A stretch of 64,000 nt of DNA from Succinispira mobilis DSM 6222 (GTDB taxonomy: Bacteria; Bacillota; Negativicutes; Acidaminococcales; Succinispiraceae). Below the pieces are notes generated by a model. It was not told the origin of the DNA and did not search any database. It saw only the letters and a list, made by a program, of their open reading frames with translations. The stretch covers positions 1,205,351 through 1,269,350 of the forward strand of contig NZ_KB913028.1 of the NCBI RefSeq assembly GCF_000384135.1, given 5' to 3'. The position numbers and the translations under genes were made by a program. Shown in pieces: positions 41,168-51,768 of the stretch. How positions within the stretch are numbered: position 1 is the stretch's first letter; every line of letters starts with the position of its first letter.

Positions 41168-41242
41168 ATTTTCTTTGTAAATAAAAAAAGAAAACGTATG
41201 GAATACCATAACGTTTGCCAAATTAAAGGGGAGTTTATTTTA

Positions 41243-42526
41243 ATGGTACATTTTTTTGACTTGATAATGTTGCCACTGCAGTTTTTAATTGTTTTTTTCA
41301 CTTTGTATTATTTCACAATATCTTTCTTTGGAATGTTTAAAAAACAGGAAGAAAAAATAAAAACACCTAAAACTACTTTTGCGGTTATTGTAGCTGCACA
41401 TAATGAAGAGACTGTTATTGGACAGTTGGTAGAAAATTTGCATGTGTTAAATTATCCAAATGAACTGTACGATATCTTTGTTATTGCTGATAATTGTAAA
41501 GATAATACAGCAAAAATAGCTTCAAGAGCAGGCGCTTTAGTTCATGAGCGGTTTAACGATCAAGAAAAAGGCAAGGGTTTTGCTATGGAGTGGATGTTTG
41601 ATCGATTGTTTAAAATGGAGAAAAAATATGATGCTGTAGTTGTTTTCGATGCAGATAATTTAGTTCATCCAGATTTTTTAAAGGAAATGAATAATCGTTA
41701 TCTCAAAGGTGAGAGAGTTATTCAAGGTTATTTAGATTCCAAAAATCCGAATGATACCTGGATAGCAGGGGTTTTTTCTATTTCTTTTTGGGTTGTAAAT
41801 CACGTATGGCATTTAGCAAAATATAATCTTGGCCTGACAAGTGTTTTAGGCGGTACGGGTATGTGTATTTCTACTGAAGTTCTACGTGAACACGGTTGGG
41901 GTGCAACTTGTTTAACCGAGGATATGGAGTTTACCATGAAAGCTTTGCTTAAAGGAATTCCTACAACTTGGGCACATGATGCTATTGTGTATGATGAGAA
42001 ACCTTTAACTTTTATTCAATCCTGGAAACAAAGAAAACGTTGGGCTCAAGGGCATTTTGACGTTGCGGGTCGTTACTTTTTTAAAATTTTAAAAGCGGGA
42101 CTTTTAAAAAGAGATATTGTTTTATTAGATGCTTTAGTGCATTTATTCCAGCCGTATTTTCTTTTTATCTCAACAACATTTGTTTTATGTAGTTATATAT
42201 ATAACTTTATTCCTTTTTATACAAATGTTTTATATCAAATATTACCATGGGAAGTTTGGACTATCATTGCCGTTGGACAATATATTTTCCCAATGATTAT
42301 TTTAGCTAAAATTCACGCTTCATTGCGTTCTTGGTTATATTTAGCCTTATACCCGCTATTTATTTATAGTTGGATTCCAATTACGGTATTAGGATTCATT
42401 CATCGACATGATCATGAATGGAGTCATACAGAGCATACACGTGGGATATCATATCAAGACGTGCTAATCCCCTCTTCTTCCGAAATTGGACCTAAACAAG
42501 TTGTATTTAGTAAAAAAGAAGTTTAG
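41243..42526 (+). CDS. Membrane-bound family 2 glycosyltransferase
   Basis: The 427-residue processive-type GT2 has an N-terminal membrane helix (about 8-30), the nucleotide-sugar domain with VVAAHNEE, the DXD motif VFDADN, LTEDMEF and the QRKRWAQGHF (QxxRW) motif, then three or four C-terminal helices. This resembles synthases of beta-linked polysaccharides or of glycolipids. ATG 41243 follows AGGGGAG; the upstream ATG 41198 is rejected. The partner WecG-like gene upstream suggests surface glycan assembly; the product is unknown. Confidence 0.88.
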   Translation: MVHFFDLIMLPLQFLIVFFTLYYFTISFFGMFKKQEEKIKTPKTTFAVIVAAHNEETVIGQLVENLHVLNYPNELYDIFVIADNCKDNTAKIASRAGALVHERFNDQEKGKGFAMEWMFDRLFKMEKKYDAVVVFDADNLVHPDFLKEMNNRYLKGERVIQGYLDSKNPNDTWIAGVFSISFWVVNHVWHLAKYNLGLTSVLGGTGMCISTEVLREHGWGATCLTEDMEFTMKALLKGIPTTWAHDAIVYDEKPLTFIQSWKQRKRWAQGHFDVAGRYFFKILKAGLLKRDIVLLDALVHLFQPYFLFISTTFVLCSYIYNFIPFYTNVLYQILPWEVWTIIAVGQYIFPMIILAKIHASLRSWLYLALYPLFIYSWIPITVLGFIHRHDHEWSHTEHTRGISYQDVLIPSSSEIGPKQVVFSKKEV

Positions 42527-42535
42527 CAATTTATA

Positions 42536-42590
42536 AAAAAACGAGCCTTTTTGTAAAAACACAAATTACAAAATTAAAGGCTCGTTTTTA
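42536..42590 (+). terminator. Terminator after the GT2 gene
   Basis: AAAAACGAGCCTTT pairs with AAAGGCTCGTTTTT (42576-42589) around a 25-base loop and ends in Ts. Confidence 0.82.
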
Positions 42591-42611
42591 AATTAATTTA
42601 AGGAGTTCAAA

Positions 42612-43190
42612 ATGCAAATTTATAACACTATTTTACAAACAGGAATTTTGCAAGGCTATAATTTACTTGTTATTGATTTAACGAATTGCAAATTAAGTAG
42701 AATAAAAAAACAAGATCTAAAAAATATGATAACTGCACGATTGCAATTGGAAACTTGCGCATTTTTTTTGATAAAACTAAACAAGCACAACTTAGAAGAT
42801 AAATTTTGTTGCAAAAATCTAGAAATAATCAAAGAATATAATTACCACGTAGTTATAGAAACTGTTTATACAAATGTAGTAAATTTAGCGACTATTTTGC
42901 CTTATGCACAAACTTTAATAATGAGATTAAGTATTAATAATCAGGAACATTTTCATAAGGAATATCTGGAATATCATCGGTTGCTCTTCTTGTTAGAAAC
43001 TAGAAATTCTAATTTAGAAATTGAACTCGATTTACCTTTAGAATTGCTAGAAGATAGAAGTTTTCTAACTTTTTTGGGGGAATGTCAGGAAAAAGTGTCA
43101 ACACGTGTTTATGTACCTAGCTATACGAATGCAGTACAAGTTTTAAGTCGACTTTTTTTGAGAATTAGATTTTTACTTAAAGAGTTTTGA
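42612..43190 (+). CDS. Unknown protein resembling a radical-SAM activase domain without its cluster cysteines
   Basis: The 192-residue product has no N-terminal CxxxCxxC. Residues about 73-145 follow the pattern of pyruvate-formate-lyase activating enzymes (LEIIKEYNYHVVIET, NLATILPYA, LIMRLSI...EHFHKEYLEY), but the GGEP-type SAM-binding motif is not present. If the likeness is real it is a dead paralogue. AAGGAG precedes the ATG; a terminator lies only 22 bases upstream, so transcription may depend on read-through. Its end overlaps the convergent recombinase gene by 14 bases. Family assignment is tentative. Confidence 0.55.
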   Translation: MQIYNTILQTGILQGYNLLVIDLTNCKLSRIKKQDLKNMITARLQLETCAFFLIKLNKHNLEDKFCCKNLEIIKEYNYHVVIETVYTNVVNLATILPYAQTLIMRLSINNQEHFHKEYLEYHRLLFLLETRNSNLEIELDLPLELLEDRSFLTFLGECQEKVSTRVYVPSYTNAVQVLSRLFLRIRFLLKEF

Positions 43191-44181
43191 TGGGTATATT
43201 TTGTGTATATCGCTTGCTTAAAATATCTTGGATATGGGCATATTTACTAGTAGTCTTGGGATCAACATGTCCCAATTCTTTTTGTACTACAATTAAATCA
43301 TGTGTAGCTTGATATAACAGCGCACCAGTAGTATGCCGGAGTAGGTGACAAGAACGCCCACTATGATCGCCTTTCTCTTTTATTCCGGCACAAATAAACC
43401 AATAATCAATAACATCTCTAATAGCACAACGGCTAAGCCGTTTACCAGTATTATTATTACTTAGTGATGTGAATACAGGGGTTCCTAGAGTATCTTTTGC
43501 CTCACAACTAAGTTGACGTAAATCTAAATATGTTTTTAATAGATTTAAAACATCTTCTCGTGGTGCAATATAGCGATCTCGCCCCTTACCTTTTACTAAC
43601 ACTAAGCCTTTAGAAAAATCAATATCTTCACAGCTTAGTCGATGGGTTTCAACTGTGCGCAAACCTTGCAGACCCATAAGTGCGATTAGACTTTTAGCCC
43701 GTAAAAATTCTTCTTGTTCTTTCGCGATTTCACTATGCTCTGGAATTATATGAAAAAGATTCTCCAATTGCTCGACACTAATATATTTAGCTCCCTCAAT
43801 ATTAGCGGCTTTGCGTTGTTTCGGAGCTTTAACACCCAAAACAGGATTTTCTGGAATTATTTTTCGAGATAATGCAATTTCATAAAATCTTCTTAAAGCT
43901 GATAATTTTAAAGCTATAGTAGGGATTTCTAGTTTCAAACTTACTAGATAGTTACGATATTCAATTAAAATGTTTTTATCAACATTTAAAGGTTGCAACC
44001 CTTCGATCAAACACCATTCTAAATACTGACTAATATGTGAATAATATGTAATCAAAGTATCTTCCCGAGCAGATCCATCAGCTATATAACGTTTTAAATA
44101 TGTTTTGTAGTTAGCAAGAAAATTTTCACGAACTAATAATTCTTGCTTAAAAATTTGTACTTCACGAGTTTCAATATTCAT
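43177..44181 (-). CDS. Tyrosine recombinase (XerC/D-like integrase family)
   Basis: The 334-residue enzyme has an N-terminal core-binding SAM-like domain (about 15-105) and a catalytic domain with R175 (GLQGLRTVE), K197/K199 (VLVKGKGRDR), H279 and R282 (CHLLRHTTG), H305 (LGHVD) and nucleophile Y314 (SKYAHI). All catalytic residues are present, so it should cut and rejoin DNA. Its length is near 300-residue Xer proteins, but it lies apart from a xer-type locus. It is preceded by a perfect 25-bp inverted repeat and faces a ribbon-helix-helix/coiled-coil gene. No excisionase, att repeat or IS was found. Confidence 0.9.
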   Translation of the reverse strand: MNIETREVQIFKQELLVRENFLANYKTYLKRYIADGSAREDTLITYYSHISQYLEWCLIEGLQPLNVDKNILIEYRNYLVSLKLEIPTIALKLSALRRFYEIALSRKIIPENPVLGVKAPKQRKAANIEGAKYISVEQLENLFHIIPEHSEIAKEQEEFLRAKSLIALMGLQGLRTVETHRLSCEDIDFSKGLVLVKGKGRDRYIAPREDVLNLLKTYLDLRQLSCEAKDTLGTPVFTSLSNNNTGKRLSRCAIRDVIDYWFICAGIKEKGDHSGRSCHLLRHTTGALLYQATHDLIVVQKELGHVDPKTTSKYAHIQDILSKRYTQNIPIKTL

Positions 44182-44239: not shown

Positions 44240-44283
44240 TTTTATAAGAGAAATTCAACTCCTTAGAATTCCCATTATGAGGA

Positions 44284-44346
44284 GTTAAATATATTATAAA
44301 ACAGAACTCGATATTTTAGCAAGTTCTGTTTTATAATATATTTAAC
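44284..44346. repeat. Perfect 25-bp inverted repeat upstream of the recombinase
   Basis: Bases 44284-44308 and 44322-44346 are exact reverse complements around a 13-base loop. Each arm contains a TATAAT. On the minus strand TTGCTA...TATAAT (18-base spacing) runs toward the recombinase gene. It also partly competes with AACTCCT/AGGAGTT (44257-44263, 44280-44286). It may be a recombination, repressor or RNA-hairpin site. Confidence 0.7.
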
Positions 44347-44418
44347 TTTAAAATTAAGTGGAATATATAATTTTTTTTGACCCGCATACACATTAGCGCT
44401 CCATATACCTGGTGTATT

Positions 44419-44489
44419 CATCGTATACGATGTGTACATAGATATTTAAAATAATTTACTTGTTTACATAACGTATACGGTGGTATACT
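44419..44489 (+). promoter_or_regulatory. Promoter and two operator-like palindromic repeats for the RHH gene
   Basis: CATCGTATACGATG (44419-44432) is a perfect 14-bp palindrome followed by TGTACA. A related copy, CGTATACGGTGGTATAC (44472-44488), covers the promoter spacer and -10: TTGTTT (44460-44465), 18 bases, TATACT (44484-44489). Copies are spaced 50 bases. This is the layout of autoregulation by the adjacent RHH protein. The rest of the 339-base gap holds the inverted repeat above. Confidence 0.5.
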
Positions 44490-44520
44490 AATGTAAAGAC
44501 GACATGTAAGGAGATTTGAA

Positions 44521-45393
44521 ATGCAAAAAAATGAAATTATAACTATCCGCACTAATAGTGATGTAAAAAAGATGGTGGAAGAAGCTAAATTAAACAGTGG
44601 CCAAACCGCAGGTGAGTGGTTAGAACAAGCTGTAATAGCTTGGGCTGAAAAGCACAATAATTCGGTTGAAGAAAAACCTCTCGACAGTATGCACATTTTG
44701 GCTGGACGAAAAGCAATTGCCGAAGTAAGTAAAGTTTTGGAAGCTTTAGAAATAGCAGGTAAACAAACCCTTGAACTTTGTAGGCAAGAAAATATTATTT
44801 GGCAAGCCAAATACCAAGAATTAGAAGAAGCGTTAGCTGCTAAAGAAATCGAAAAAGCAAATTTAATTACTGATTTGAATAACAAAGAAATCGAACAGAA
44901 AAAAGAATTTGCCGCACAAGCGAAGCTGATTACCAAACTCCAAGAAGAATTGCAAAATCAAAAAGCACAAAAAAGCGCCTTGCAAGAAGTCACCCAATGT
45001 TTGGAGCAAGAACGTTCTATAAGCCTAAGGCTACACAAAAGTAAAGAAGAGTTGGAAAAAAAATTCCAAGATATTGAGAGCAAGTATAATAAATTAGTGT
45101 TGGAAAATGAAAATCAGATAAACAATCTAGAAAAACTTCAAGAAAAAACTACTGTTCTTGAGCAAGAATTAAAAAAACTACAGCTCGATTTGAGTAATAA
45201 AGAACGCGAAAACATAACTTTAAACCTAAATAATAAATACCAGGAAAATACATTAGCACAATTACGTGCTAGTATTGATACTCAAAATTTGCAAATTAAA
45301 GATTTACAAGCAGAAAATTTTAATTTGATAACTAAAAAAAGTGAACTAATTGGCGAAATTACTAGTCTAAAAACACAATTAAATAAATCCTAA
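44521..45393 (+). CDS. Ribbon-helix-helix N-terminus with long coiled coil (KfrA-like architecture)
   Basis: Residues about 5-45 (IITIRTNSDVKKMVEEAKLNSG, then WLEQAVIAWAEKH) have the strand-helix-helix pattern of ribbon-helix-helix DNA-binding proteins. Residues 80-288 are a long, heptad-rich coiled coil with many Glu, Lys, Gln and Leu. Together this recalls plasmid KfrA proteins, which bind their own promoter and form long rods, though no sequence relation to KfrA is claimed. AAGGAG precedes the ATG. It faces the tyrosine recombinase and lies behind matching palindromes, so self-repression or a DNA-architecture role is likely. A terminator follows at 45400. Confidence 0.75.
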   Translation: MQKNEIITIRTNSDVKKMVEEAKLNSGQTAGEWLEQAVIAWAEKHNNSVEEKPLDSMHILAGRKAIAEVSKVLEALEIAGKQTLELCRQENIIWQAKYQELEEALAAKEIEKANLITDLNNKEIEQKKEFAAQAKLITKLQEELQNQKAQKSALQEVTQCLEQERSISLRLHKSKEELEKKFQDIESKYNKLVLENENQINNLEKLQEKTTVLEQELKKLQLDLSNKERENITLNLNNKYQENTLAQLRASIDTQNLQIKDLQAENFNLITKKSELIGEITSLKTQLNKS

Positions 45394-45431: not shown

Positions 45432-45594
45432 TTTAACTCAATTTGTCACAGTATTATATTACAGTATTTGCTGTTTATTTACAAGTTTTCATAAACTTAA
45501 AGAGAAAACTTTTCGAAAATTCAATAAGGTTTTATTTGGAAACCTACAGACTGTTAAATATTAAAGTTTTTACAGTATATATAATGTATACAAC

Positions 45595-45697: not shown

Positions 45698-48600
45698 ATG
45701 TATAAATTAAACAGAAGTCCAGAAAAACAAGGTCTCTATGATCCCTGGTTCGAGCATGATGCTTGTGGTTTAGGGGTTGTAGCCAACATCAAGGGTAAAA
45801 AGTCAAATAAAATTTTGAAACAAGCTCTCACAGTACTATGTAATTTAGACCATCGCGGCGGTCAAGGAGCAGATAAAAATACTGGCGATGGTGCCGGAAT
45901 CTTGTTTCAAATTCCGCATATGTTTTTCCATAAGGAATGTGCCAAACTAGAAATAGAATTACCAAAATCTGAAGAGTACGCTGTAGGTATGCTTTTTCTT
46001 CCACCTGATATAGTTGAACGCGAAAATTGCCAACGCCATTTCGAAAGAATTGTTAAAGAAAATGGGCAAATCATTTTAGGTTGGCGTCAAGTTCCAGTTA
46101 ACTCTACTGTTTTAGGTGAAAAATCGCGAGATAGTCAACCTTATATTGCCCAAGTATTCATTAAAGCAAACGACAGTATTCTAGGAAAATTGCCTATTGA
46201 CAATAATATTTTTGAAAGAAAACTATACATGATACGACGCGAAGCTGAAAATTATATAAAAAAGGGAAATCTTCGCGGGGGAAATTATTTTTATATAGCA
46301 AGTTTATCTTCAAGAACGATTGTCTATAAAGGAATGCTAACCACTCGGCAGTTAGATGAATTTTATATCGATCTATCGGATAATAGTATTTTAACAGCTA
46401 TGGCACTAGTACACTCTCGTTTCAGCACGAATACTTTTCCAAGTTGGGAGAGAGCACACCCTTATCGCTACCTAATGCATAATGGCGAAATCAACACATT
46501 ACGGGGTAATATAAATTGGATGCGGGCACGTCAAAGCTTATGTGGTAATAAACTTTGGGGTAAAAATATTAAAAAAATTATGCCCATAATCGATGAAAGC
46601 GGTAGCGACTCTGGAATGTTTGATAATTGCTTGGAATTTTTAGTTATGTCAGGCAGAAGTTTACCCCATGCAGTTATGATGATGATTCCTGAACCATGGG
46701 TAAATAATCCCCACATCGACGAAGACTTAAAGGCCTTCTTTAACTACCATGATTGTCTAATGGAACCTTGGGATGGCCCAGCAGCTATGGCTTATACTGA
46801 TGGTAAGACAATTTGCGCAGCCCTTGACCGCAATGGCTTAAGACCTTCTCGTTACTATATTACTAATGATGACATGATTATTCTTGCTTCCGAAGTAGGT
46901 GTTGTTGATATCGCTCCTGAAAACATTGTATCTAAAGAGCGACTTCAGCCTGGTAAAATGTTAGTTATCGATACAGTGTTAGGTAAAATTGTTAGCAATG
47001 AAGAAATAAAAAAACAGTTAGCAAATGAACAACCCTATAAAAAATGGATTGATGAAAATATGATTCAGCTAGAAGATATTAAGGCTGATACACAATTGCC
47101 AAAACCATGTATTGAAACTTTACGGAAAAGACAAATCGCCTTCGGATATACATTGGAAGAAATAAACAAAATTTTAAAACCTATGGCTTTAGAAGCCAAT
47201 GATCCTACAGCTTCTATGGGTAGTGATATGCCGCTTGCAGTTTTATCACCTAAACCACAACTTCTTTATGATTATTTCAAACAACTTTTTGCACAAGTAA
47301 CTAATCCACCTATCGATGCTATTCGCGAGAAAATTTACACAGATACCAGCACAACTATTGGGCCCGAAAAAAATCCAATAGATCCCAAACCAGATAGCTG
47401 TCGCCAAATAGCTGTGGAATCACCAATTCTTTGTAATGAACAAATGGCAAAATTTAAAAATATTAATGATGTCAACTTAGATGGTTTTAAGTCGATAGTT
47501 ATACCAACACTTTATAAAGTTGATGGTGGTGGTAAATCCCTAGAGACTGCTTTGCTTGAATTGTGTCAAAAAGCCGACAAATCAATCGCGCTTGGCAAAA
47601 CTATATTAATACTTTCTGATCGTGGTGTTGATGCTGAACATGCTTCCATTCCTGCTTTATTAGCGGTAGCCTGTTTACATCATCACTTGATAAATAATGC
47701 TACAAGACTTCACGCTAGTATTCTTTTAGAGTCTGCAGAACCTAGAGAAGTGCATCATTTTGCACTATTGCTCGGTTATGGAGTTAGTGGTATTAATCCT
47801 TATCTAGTATTTGAAACTTTAGACAATATGTGTCAAGCAAATATATTAAAAAATATCGAGTACGAAATAGCTGTTAAAAATTATATTAAAGCTAGTACCA
47901 AAGGAATTGCTAAAGTTTTATCAAAAATGGGTATTTCCACCATTCAAAGTTATCGCGGCGCACAAATCTTTGAAGCAATCGGCATCAGTACAAAGGTTAT
48001 CAATAAATATTTCCATGGGACTCCTTCCAGAATTGAGGGTATCGGTTTGGATGAAATAGCCAAAGAGGTTGCTTTACGTCACGAAAAAGCCTTCAAGAGC
48101 GAAGATTACCAAGATTATCTTTATGACTCTGGATCTGCCCATCAATGGCGTAACAACGGTGAAAAACATATTTTCAATCCAGAAACTATTCTTACTTTGC
48201 AAGAAGCCTGCCGCACAAATGACTATACTTTATTTAAAAAATTCTCAAGTATGATTAATGAAAGAACTAACAACACGCAGACCTTAAGAAGTTTGCTCGA
48301 GTTTTCTCCACAACGTTTACCGATCGATATTGCTGAGGTAGAAAGCATCTCTTCTATTTGCAAAAGATTTAAAAGTGGTGCGATGTCTTATGGTTCATTA
48401 AGCCAAGAAGCACATGAGTGTCTAGCACTAGCAATGAACGCTATCGGAGGCAAAAGCAACACAGGCGAAGGCGGCGAACATCCTTCACGTTATCAAAACA
48501 TTCCAGGCAACAATCGCCGTAGCGCTATTAAACAAGTAGCATCCGGACGTTTTGGAGTAACAAGCAGTTATTTAGTAAATGCCGATGAAATTCAAATAAA

Positions 48601-50293
48601 AATTGCCCAAGGCGCTAAACCTGGGGAAGGTGGTCAATTACCCGGAACAAAAGTTTATCCATGGATAGCGGAAGCTAGAGGTACAACGGCTGGGGTAGAA
48701 TTAATTTCACCACCCCCACACCACGATATTTATTCTATAGAAGATTTGGCGGAACTCATTTTCGATTTGAAAAACGCAAATCCTTCGGCCAAAATAAGCG
48801 TTAAATTAGTTTCAGAAGTTGGAATCGGCACAATAGCCGCAGGGGTTGCAAAAGCTAATGCTGATACAATTTTAATAAGCGGTTATGATGGCGGCACTGG
48901 AGCTTCGCCGCGTACTAGTATTCGTCATGCTGGTTTACCTTGGGAAATAGGTTTAGCAGAAACGCACCAAACTTTATTGTTAAATAATTTGCGCAGTCGT
49001 GTACGGCTTGAAACAGACGGAAAACTAATGACAGGCCGCGATGTAATAATTGCCAGTTTATTAGGTGCAGAAGAATTTGGGTTCGCTACCGCTCCACTGA
49101 TTGTTATGGGCTGCATAATGATGCGCGTTTGCAACTTAAACACTTGTCCGGTAGGAGTGGCCACTCAAGATCCTAAATTAAGAGCAAATTTTAAGGGAAA
49201 ACCAGAACACGTAATAACCTTTATGCATTTTATTGCCCAAGAGGTACGTGAGTATATGGCAGAACTAGGCTTTAAATCAATAGATGAAATGATTGGAAGA
49301 ACCGAAGTTTTAGAAGCCAACACCAATAAACATTGGAAAAGTAAAGGTTTAGATCTAAGTTTACTTTTGCATAAACCAGATATTGATAGACATACTATTC
49401 AATATTGTGTTTTTGAACAGGACCACGGATTAGAAAAAACTCTCGATTCTCGAGAACTTCTGAATATTTGTAATCCAGCTTTGAAAAACGGTAAAAAAAT
49501 CAACGTTACTTTGCCAATCAAAAATACTGACCGTGTAGTAGGCACAATGTTAGGTAGTGCTGTAACAAAAAAATATGGTTCTGAAGGCCTGCCCGAAGAT
49601 ACAATACAACTAAAATTCATCGGTTCTGCTGGACAAAGTTTTGGTGCATTTTTACCTAAAGGAATAACGCTTGCCTTAGAAGGAGACGCCAATGATCACG
49701 TTGGTAAAGGTCTGTCCGGTGGGAAAATAGCAATTTACCCACCTACTGATGCTAAGTTTATTGCCCGGGAAAACATTATTATCGGCAATGTTGCTTTTTA
49801 TGGTGCTACTTCAGGTAGAGCTTATATTGCTGGAATAGCTGGCGAGCGCTTTGCTATTCGCAATAGTGGTGCAACTGCAGTAGTTGAAGGAGTCGGCGAT
49901 CATGGTTGTGAATACATGACTGGCGGCACGGTTGTGATTTTAGGAAAAACAGGTAGAAATTTTGCCGCAGGCATGTCGGGCGGAGTCGCTTACATCTATG
50001 ATGAAGATAATAGTTTTTCAAATTTATGTAATACTGAGTTGGTTTTACTTGAAAAACTAGAAGATCCTACCGAAAAACTATTAGTACAAAAGCACATTTA
50101 TCGTCACCAATATTATACTTGTAGCAAAGTTGCCGATGAGCTTTTAGCAAATTGGAGCGAGTGCTCGCAAAAATTTATAAAAGTTATTCCTAAGCGTTAT
50201 AAAATTATAACAGAAAAAATCGCAACCTATATGGAGGCTGGATTAAGTGAAGAATTGGCAACTATCAGAGTTTTCGAGGAGGCTGGTAAGTAA
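45698..50293 (+). CDS. gltB: Glutamate synthase large subunit
   Basis: GltB with GltD makes two glutamates from glutamine and 2-oxoglutarate using NADPH. The 1531-residue protein has the glutaminase domain, with the likely N-terminal nucleophile C23 exposed by cleavage of a short propeptide (DACGLGVVA), the central domain and the FMN/synthase domain. The 3Fe-4S ligands are in [15 protein letters not shown] (about residues 1148-1159). The C-terminal GXGXG beta-helix is complete. GGGAGG precedes the ATG. The stop shares a base with gltD (TAATG). Confidence 0.97.
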
Positions 50294-51768
50294 TGGGTAA
50301 AGCAACAGGTTTTATAGATACCAAAAGAGAAGATTTAAACAATCGCCCTGTTAAGGAGCGAGTTAAAGATTGGCAAGAAGTCAAACAAGACCATTACAGC
50401 AAAGAAATTCTTCAAGCTCAAGCAGGTAGATGCATGGATTGTAGCATTCCTTTTTGTCATACAGGTAGCATAATCAATGATGCTTTAGTTGGTTGTCCGC
50501 TACATAATTTAACCCCAGAGTTTAATGAATTCGTCTATCAAGATATCCCAGAGTTTGCTTACATTAGACTTTGTAAAAATAATAACTTCCCTGAGTTTAC
50601 AGGAAGAGTTTGTCCTGCTCCATGTGAGAGTTCTTGTAGTGCTGGCTTAATTACTGATCCAGTTAGCATAAGAAATATTGAGTTACACATTATCGAAGAT
50701 GCTTTCAAAAGCGGTTTGGTAAAAGCAACACCGCCACAAGTTCGGACCGGTAAAAAAATTGCTGTAATCGGCTCTGGTCCAGCTGGATTAGCCTGTGCAG
50801 ATCAGCTAAACAAAAAAGGACATACAGTAACTGTATTTGAACGTGATGATCGCGCTGGCGGTTTATTAATGTACGGAATTCCAAATATGAAGTTAGATAA
50901 AAGTATAATCCAAAGACGAATTAATTTGTTAACCGACGAAGGAATAGAATTTGAATTTAATACCGAAATCGGTATTAATATTCCGACAGAAACAATATTG
51001 CGCACTTTTGATGCTGTAATAATATGTACCGGCAGTACTATTCCAAGAAAAATGGAGATCCCTGGCTGTGATGCCACAGGTGTATATTTTGCGAAAGATT
51101 ATTTACACAAAGCCACTAAAAGCTTGCTGGATAGCAATTTCACCGATGGCAACTTCATTGATGCTCGCGATAAAGACGTGATTGTCATCGGTGGTGGCGA
51201 TACTGGTACAGATTGTGTTGCAACAGCAATTCGCCAAGGTTGCAAAAGCATTAAGCAATTAGAAATCATGCCTTGCCTCCCCAACAGTAGAGCTGCCGAT
51301 AATCCATGGCCACAGTTTCCTAAAATTCATAAAATCGACTATGGACAACAAGAAGCTTTAGAACTATTCAACAATGATCCTCGAGAATATTGTGTTTTAA
51401 CTAAAGAATTTATAAAAGATGAAAAAAATATACTCGCCGGAGTAAGAGTTGCGCGAGTAAACTGGATTAAAGAGGCTTGTAAAATGAATTTACAAGAAAT
51501 AGAAGATACTGAGAAAATATTGCCCGCGCAATTAGTTTTATTGGCAATGGGTTTTATCGGTCCAGAACAAACTATTTTAGATGCCTTTAATCTTGAAAAA
51601 ACAGTAAGCGGGACTATTGCAACTAAGGAGAATTCTCATCAGACCAGTCATGATAAAATTTTTGTAGCTGGCGATGCTAAAAGAGGTCAAAGTTTAGTTG
51701 CTTGGGCAATTATCGAAGGTAGACAAGCAGCACAAGAGTGCCATGAATATCTAAAAACCATAAAATAA
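50293..51768 (+). CDS. gltD: Glutamate synthase small subunit
   Basis: GltD passes electrons from NADPH through FAD and two 4Fe-4S clusters to GltB. The 491-residue protein has N-terminal cluster cysteines (CMDCSIPFCHTG and GRVCPAPCESSC), the FAD site GSGPAGLACA near residue 160 and the NADPH site GGGDTGTDC near residue 300. FVAGDAKRGQSLVAWAI closes the FAD domain. Coupled to gltB by a one-base overlap. Confidence 0.96.
   Translation: MGKATGFIDTKREDLNNRPVKERVKDWQEVKQDHYSKEILQAQAGRCMDCSIPFCHTGSIINDALVGCPLHNLTPEFNEFVYQDIPEFAYIRLCKNNNFPEFTGRVCPAPCESSCSAGLITDPVSIRNIELHIIEDAFKSGLVKATPPQVRTGKKIAVIGSGPAGLACADQLNKKGHTVTVFERDDRAGGLLMYGIPNMKLDKSIIQRRINLLTDEGIEFEFNTEIGINIPTETILRTFDAVIICTGSTIPRKMEIPGCDATGVYFAKDYLHKATKSLLDSNFTDGNFIDARDKDVIVIGGGDTGTDCVATAIRQGCKSIKQLEIMPCLPNSRAADNPWPQFPKIHKIDYGQQEALELFNNDPREYCVLTKEFIKDEKNILAGVRVARVNWIKEACKMNLQEIEDTEKILPAQLVLLAMGFIGPEQTILDAFNLEKTVSGTIATKENSHQTSHDKIFVAGDAKRGQSLVAWAIIEGRQAAQECHEYLKTIK

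Follow-up and report, generated by a model that had tools for sequence, protein, structure and literature searches.

In most bacteria, fused chromosomes are separated by a pair of enzymes, XerC and XerD. Several lineages instead carry a single Xer recombinase, such as XerS in streptococci and lactococci, XerH in epsilon-proteobacteria, XerA in archaea, or XerL in Legionellales, and in the case of XerS and XerH the dif site adjoins the recombinase gene, with difSL having a long centre of 11 bp (PMC5357621, PMC9765430). Accessory factors have also been described in Xer recombination, as ArgR and PepA act in this way at cer (PMC5357621). Among DNA-binding proteins with coiled coils, KfrA of plasmid RA3 (IncU) possesses a small N-terminal DNA-binding head and an alpha-helical tail (residues 54-355), and represses its own gene through an operator of five 9-bp repeats overlapping the -35 and -10 elements (PMC7783346). 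MatP, in turn, combines a central ribbon-helix-helix (RHH) with a C-terminal coiled coil, and its site matS is repeated more than 20 times (PMC12756933).

The locus described here lies in a 64-kb window (the whole stretch of DNA that was analysed) and comprises two divergent genes, encoding a tyrosine recombinase (P0002) and a coiled-coil protein (P0001), with their intergenic region (Table 1). We consider it likely that the locus is the replication terminus with its dimer-resolution site, P0002 acting on dif and P0001 being an autorepressing coiled-coil DNA-binder. In terms of described systems, it is probably a single-recombinase dif/Xer system with an adjoining, lineage-specific KfrA-like gene.

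Table 1. Features of the P0002-P0001 locus, with positions counted in the window.
Feature	Position	Strand	Remarks
P0002, 334-aa tyrosine recombinase	43177..44181	-	Only Xer-type enzyme of the genome
dif candidate, AACTCCTTA-GAATTCCCATTA-TGAGGAGTT (9-12-9)	44257..44286	none	75 bp upstream of the P0002 start codon
26-bp perfect inverted repeat, 13-nt loop	44283..44347	none	Overlaps the end of the dif candidate by 4 nt; rival dif candidate
Putative P0002 promoter, TTGCTA-18-TATAAT	44322-44293	-	Inside the 26-bp inverted repeat
Putative operator site 1	44414..44437	none	GTATTC/GTATAC/GTGTAC at 44414, 44423, 44432; includes CATCGTATACGATG
Putative operator site 2	44462..44488	none	GTTTAC/GTATAC/GTATAC at 44462, 44473, 44483; on the -35/-10 region
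Putative extended -10 of P0001, TGGTATACT	44481..44489	+	By sequence; -35-like TTTACA at 44463, 15-bp spacing
Shine-Dalgarno AAGGAG of P0001	44508..44513	+	
P0001, 290-aa coiled-coil protein	44521..45393	+	Predicted RHH-like N-terminus (~residues 5-46), linker, ~235-residue coiled coil; orphan
Intrinsic terminator-like hairpin 3' of P0001	45399..45428	+	

Recombinase P0002 and its Candidate dif Site

The active-site residues of P0002 (R175, H279, R282, and Y314) are invariant with those of XerC and XerD among 28 aligned proteins; one XerC sequence (L138), probably in the wrong frame and with a branch length of 10, is meaningless in the tree and was excluded from the residue comparison. P0002 falls below the NCBIfam cut-offs for XerC (124.8 bits against 335), XerD (122.5 against 330), and XerS (75.9 against 267), in a comparison whose results included no XerH model, and in the tree its family branches apart from both XerC and XerD. 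A scan of this genome with the XerD model found neither XerC nor XerD. P0002 itself was the only Xer-type match (122 bits), and the other matches were two fragments and an integrase whose frame spans 403 aa. Relatives of P0002 at E <1e-24 are present in 80 of the 379 other genomes of the class, and a scan of the genome collection returned no close relative. At its 3' end, the recombinase gene is overlapped tail to tail, at the terminus, by a 192-aa ORF (42612-43190) with no Pfam match.

The distribution of Xer proteins varied among 18 genomes. No XerD-model match above 150 bits was detected in 11 of them (this one, G042, G135, G136, G140, G141, G142, G144, G130, G134, and G122), while G065, G066, and G081 (loci L082, L080, and L083) encode an XerD of ~393 bits and a P0002 relative with no XerC-level match. 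XerC, XerD, and a P0002 relative are all present in G091 and G093, and G001 and G006 possess XerC and XerD with no close P0002 relative. From these sequences, the P0002 family seems to have taken the place of the XerC/XerD pair in part of its class, and G065, G066, and G081 may represent an intermediate in which one Xer partner has been replaced.

The 9-12-9 repeat upstream of the recombinase gene is most likely dif, judging from sequence conservation. Its arms share 17 of 18 positions, and the 12-bp spacing, with those beside the closest relatives of P0002, in G065 and G066, and it is the sole match to these arms at up to 3 mismatches in the window (0.05 expected). In ten other genomes, the P0002 relative likewise has a dif-like site upstream. 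Such sites have the form AACTCCTTA-TAAGTATAATTA-TAAGGAGTT and a 12-bp centre in G065 and G066, AACGTCCTA-N12-TAGGACGTT in G042, AACTTCCTA-N12-TAGGAAGTT in G135, and TAAGTCCTA-N12-TAGGACTTA in G140, G141, G142, and G144. In G093 and G091 (L084 and L085), an XerCD-type dif-like ACGTCCGATAATATCTATTATGTTAAGT was seen by eye there instead, ~500 bp or less upstream of the P0002 relative. Among four species of one genus, a single one (L091, compared with L088-L090) has the asymmetric centre of the dif-like site inverted relative to the recombinase gene.

A different site of recombination is conceivable though improbable, namely the 26-13-26 perfect inverted repeat, which probably corresponds to the 25-bp repeat of the original prediction, with the 9-12-9 repeat being incidental. 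This sequence folds far better than its shuffles (z -9.7) and contains TATAAT on both strands, and the dif-like sites of G081, G144, and G042 each lie in the middle of a perfect inverted repeat of considerable length. However, it is the weaker dif candidate because it does not carry the arm sequence of the family, and its centre is 13 nt rather than the 12 of the relatives, whereas the 9-12-9 site has both features.

The placement of the locus at the terminus rests on the skew within the 64-kb window and the position of dnaA. Third-codon GC skew was positive for the genes at 41198-43190 (+0.28 and +0.25) and negative for gltB and gltD at 45698-51768 (-0.20 and -0.28), all four being coded on the plus strand. 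Since the skew changes sign there, the replichore switch lies between ~43.2 and ~45.7 kb, at the locus. On the single 2.09-Mb contig that carries it, the locus (~1,249,700 of 2,085,243 bases) is 47.5% of the chromosome away from dnaA (257,548). Similar distances between the recombinase gene and dnaA were obtained for G135 (50.1%), G136 (47.5%), G066 (49.5%), and G244 (45.5%), as fractions calculated by hand from the listed positions in genomes of one or two contigs. In four genomes of genus g47 (L093-L096), by contrast, the distance of the single Xer gene from dnaA is only 8-13%, away from the terminus, and its surroundings showed no dif. Considering the absence of XerCD, the position of the gene, and the conserved site, we infer that P0002 would substitute for XerC/XerD in this genome, acting as a single Xer-type recombinase on the dif-like repeat upstream of its own gene.

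The Coiled-Coil Protein P0001 and its Putative Operator

The ORF encoding P0001 looks like a real gene, given its ribosome-binding site, the extended -10 TGGTATACT (which a strict promoter scan did not pick up), and its terminator. The large hydrophobic residues of positions 85-290 recur with a period of 3.5, exceeding all 2000 shuffles, residues 56-290 contain no proline and three glycines, and AlphaFold2 run without an alignment predicted one helix spanning residues 56-289, mostly with pLDDT >90. These features bear out the coiled coil of about 200 residues that had originally been proposed. In the prediction of the whole protein, the N-terminus was modelled with low confidence as a pair of short helices (12-26 and 30-46), while the first 65 residues alone gave a strand (6-10) followed by two helices (13-21 and 30-44) with a mean pLDDT of 59. 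The RHH head of the original prediction agrees with this strand-helix-helix order and with the sequence pattern, but searches against Pfam, PDB sequences, and Foldseek returned no support for it, and Pfam and NCBIfam gave no match to any DNA-binding head, so that the assignment remains a low-confidence prediction. The RHH fold requires a dimer, and P0001 would probably be dimeric with such a head.

No relatives of P0001 were detected in the 380 genomes of the class, in a collection of 84,980 genomes (pattern scan), or among 72,556 plasmids, 50,697 phages, and viral contigs. Weak matches in G169 and G144 were traced to an ABC transporter and to a chemotaxis receptor.

A palindrome and a related second copy 50 bases away had been reported over the P0001 promoter, and both are present. 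The perfect 14-bp palindrome CATCGTATACGATG occupies 44419-44432, extending imperfectly to 26 bp (44413-44438, 11 of 13 pairs), and copies of CGTATACG start at 44422, inside CATCGTATACGATG, and at 44472 (core 44472-44479), the only two in the window. A lone perfect 14-bp palindrome is unremarkable because the window contains twelve; the layout of the operator, in contrast, is not due to chance, since two copies of CGTATACG did not arise in any of 2000 dinucleotide shuffles of the surrounding 100 bp. Six GTATAC-like boxes with at most one mismatch were found in total, arranged as two groups of three with neighbours 9-11 bp apart, a number that only 4 of 2000 shuffled versions of the intergenic region (339 bp) reached. 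Further GTATAC-type sites, for which the original prediction had proposed a genome-wide search, did not emerge: exact CGTATACGNTG occurs at this locus alone, and the palindrome pattern showed no genome-wide enrichment over the reversed-pattern control and no field of sites around the terminus. An additional CGTATACG palindrome (C1:1102531-1102544) is probably due to chance, as it lies inside a nadD-like coding frame.

As suggested by the layout of repeats over the -35 and -10 elements, P0001 dimers would bind the boxes on their own promoter and repress their own synthesis, as KfrA does on plasmids. The product of the gene is probably a rod-shaped DNA-binding protein that represses itself. Autorepression is the role of P0001 that the data support, because no further copies of the operator were found around the terminus. 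The coiled coil may, in addition, join P0001 dimers bound to the two groups of boxes. As the only clear putative sites of P0001 lie ~130-200 bp from the dif candidate (~140-220 bp from its centre), the bound protein would assemble with this DNA into a nucleoprotein complex confined to the terminus.

Association with the Recombinase and Alternative Roles

A P0001-like gene was not found beside the recombinase at any of the 18 other loci whose flanks were read, and CGTATACG was absent from the recombinase loci of relatives (0 of 12). These results suggest that P0001 and P0002 may be mere neighbours, and a functional link of P0001 with the recombinase is one that we only infer. Relatives in which the two genes lie apart would, by the terms of the original prediction, speak against it, and this is partly the case: the recombinase is widespread with no P0001 adjoining, and P0001 itself has no detectable relatives. 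A coiled-coil tail convergent with the recombinase in G042 (L044, at the end of contig C10) was rejected as a partner gene; it is uninformative on P0001 because the contig end truncates it, contig 15 carries a paralogous end, and no relatives turned up in the order.

There is a small chance that P0001 assists the recombinase as an accessory factor, binding beside dif and building or policing the synapse as ArgR and PepA do at cer. The distance from its boxes to the dif centre is comparable to that of the cer accessory sequences, ~180 bp (PMC5357621), and the genome possesses no other exact site of this kind. However, relatives of the recombinase manage with no such gene or boxes beside dif, and the boxes here sit exactly on the P0001 promoter, where autoregulation already explains them. 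An accessory role agrees with the distances but is at odds with the comparison among genomes, as the relatives were read with neither gene nor boxes beside the recombinase. We hold it similarly doubtful that a dedicated, autoregulated coiled-coil protein and a single-recombinase dif/Xer system together form a new module of terminus segregation, arisen where XerC/XerD were lost. Of the segregation, resolution, or switching module put forward earlier, what stands is a recombinase tied to DNA resolution; DNA switching found no support. It is also possible that P0001 alone is cargo inserted beside dif, but no second dif copy flanks it; a AAGTTTTC...GAAAACTT repeat at ~45481-45513 was rejected as such a copy, its arms being unlike those of the family.

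It is rather unlikely that P0001 is a terminus organiser like MatP, in which an RHH dimer and its coiled coil would bridge terminus DNA or tether it to the division machinery. The predicted RHH and coiled coil and the location of the gene at the replichore switch agree with this role, but the palindrome is restricted to one promoter, compared with more than 20 MatP sites in Ter, and P0001 does not contain an N-terminal four-helix bundle. Least probable is the plasmid origin that the original prediction had entertained, in which an integrated plasmid, or another mobile element, left the locus behind and P0001 and P0002 served it as KfrA-type stability protein and resolvase: the KfrA-like layout, the lineage-restricted orphan P0001, and a recombinase with inverted repeats nearby fit such an origin, but P0001 has no plasmid, phage, or viral relative, P0002 belongs to a class-wide chromosomal family, the locus occupies the replichore switch, and the neighbours are housekeeping genes (phosphatidylserine decarboxylase, CDP-alcohol phosphatidyltransferase, glycosyltransferases, gltBD, and a HIT protein), with no plasmid replication, partition, or mobilisation genes identified by Pfam among ten of them.

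Comparison with Known Systems

The preferred reading, a terminus with a single-recombinase dif/Xer system and an autorepressing neighbour, would add one more lineage of bacteria to those where a single recombinase appears to have taken over from XerC and XerD. The route of this replacement can be tested, as present-day genomes display what look like its intermediates: XerC and XerD alone, both with the new enzyme, XerD with the new enzyme, and the new enzyme alone. P0001 is, in addition, a candidate for a terminus-bound coiled-coil protein; to our knowledge, none is known in its lineage.

With KfrA, P0001 shares a small N-terminal head, a long coiled-coil tail, and repeats over its own -35 and -10, and the KfrA likeness originally noted is in agreement with both tail and operator layout. 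However, the head of KfrA is a helix-turn-helix, whereas that of P0001 is predicted as strand-helix-helix and RHH-like, and KfrA works with the plasmid partners KfrC, KorB, and IncC, while P0001 is chromosomal and has no sequence relative on plasmids. MatP resembles P0001 in its RHH (only predicted in P0001), its coiled coil, and its link to the terminus; the differences are that P0001 has no array of sites across Ter, no N-terminal bundle, and no sequence relation by Pfam. Because the genome does not contain a field of such sites, P0001 is not MatP-like in behaviour.

Similar to XerS/difSL, XerH/difH, and XerL/dif, the locus combines one Xer recombinase, in a genome with no XerC/XerD, with a dif-like repeat at the terminus. 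The likeness to XerS and XerH extends to the candidate dif adjoining the recombinase gene, and the centre of difSL is 11 bp compared with 12 here. P0002 scores higher with the XerC/XerD models (123-125 bits) than with that of XerS (76), and it differs from XerS, XerH, and XerL in the nearly symmetric arms of its dif, like AACTCCTTA or AACTTCCTA, and in forming its own family within the class. No literature linking Negativicutes or Selenomonas with a single-recombinase Xer system was found in a search that did not extend to subscription journals. What is new here is thus the recombinase with its dif, as a variant of the known single-recombinase Xer systems, and P0001, as an orphan of a known type of architecture.
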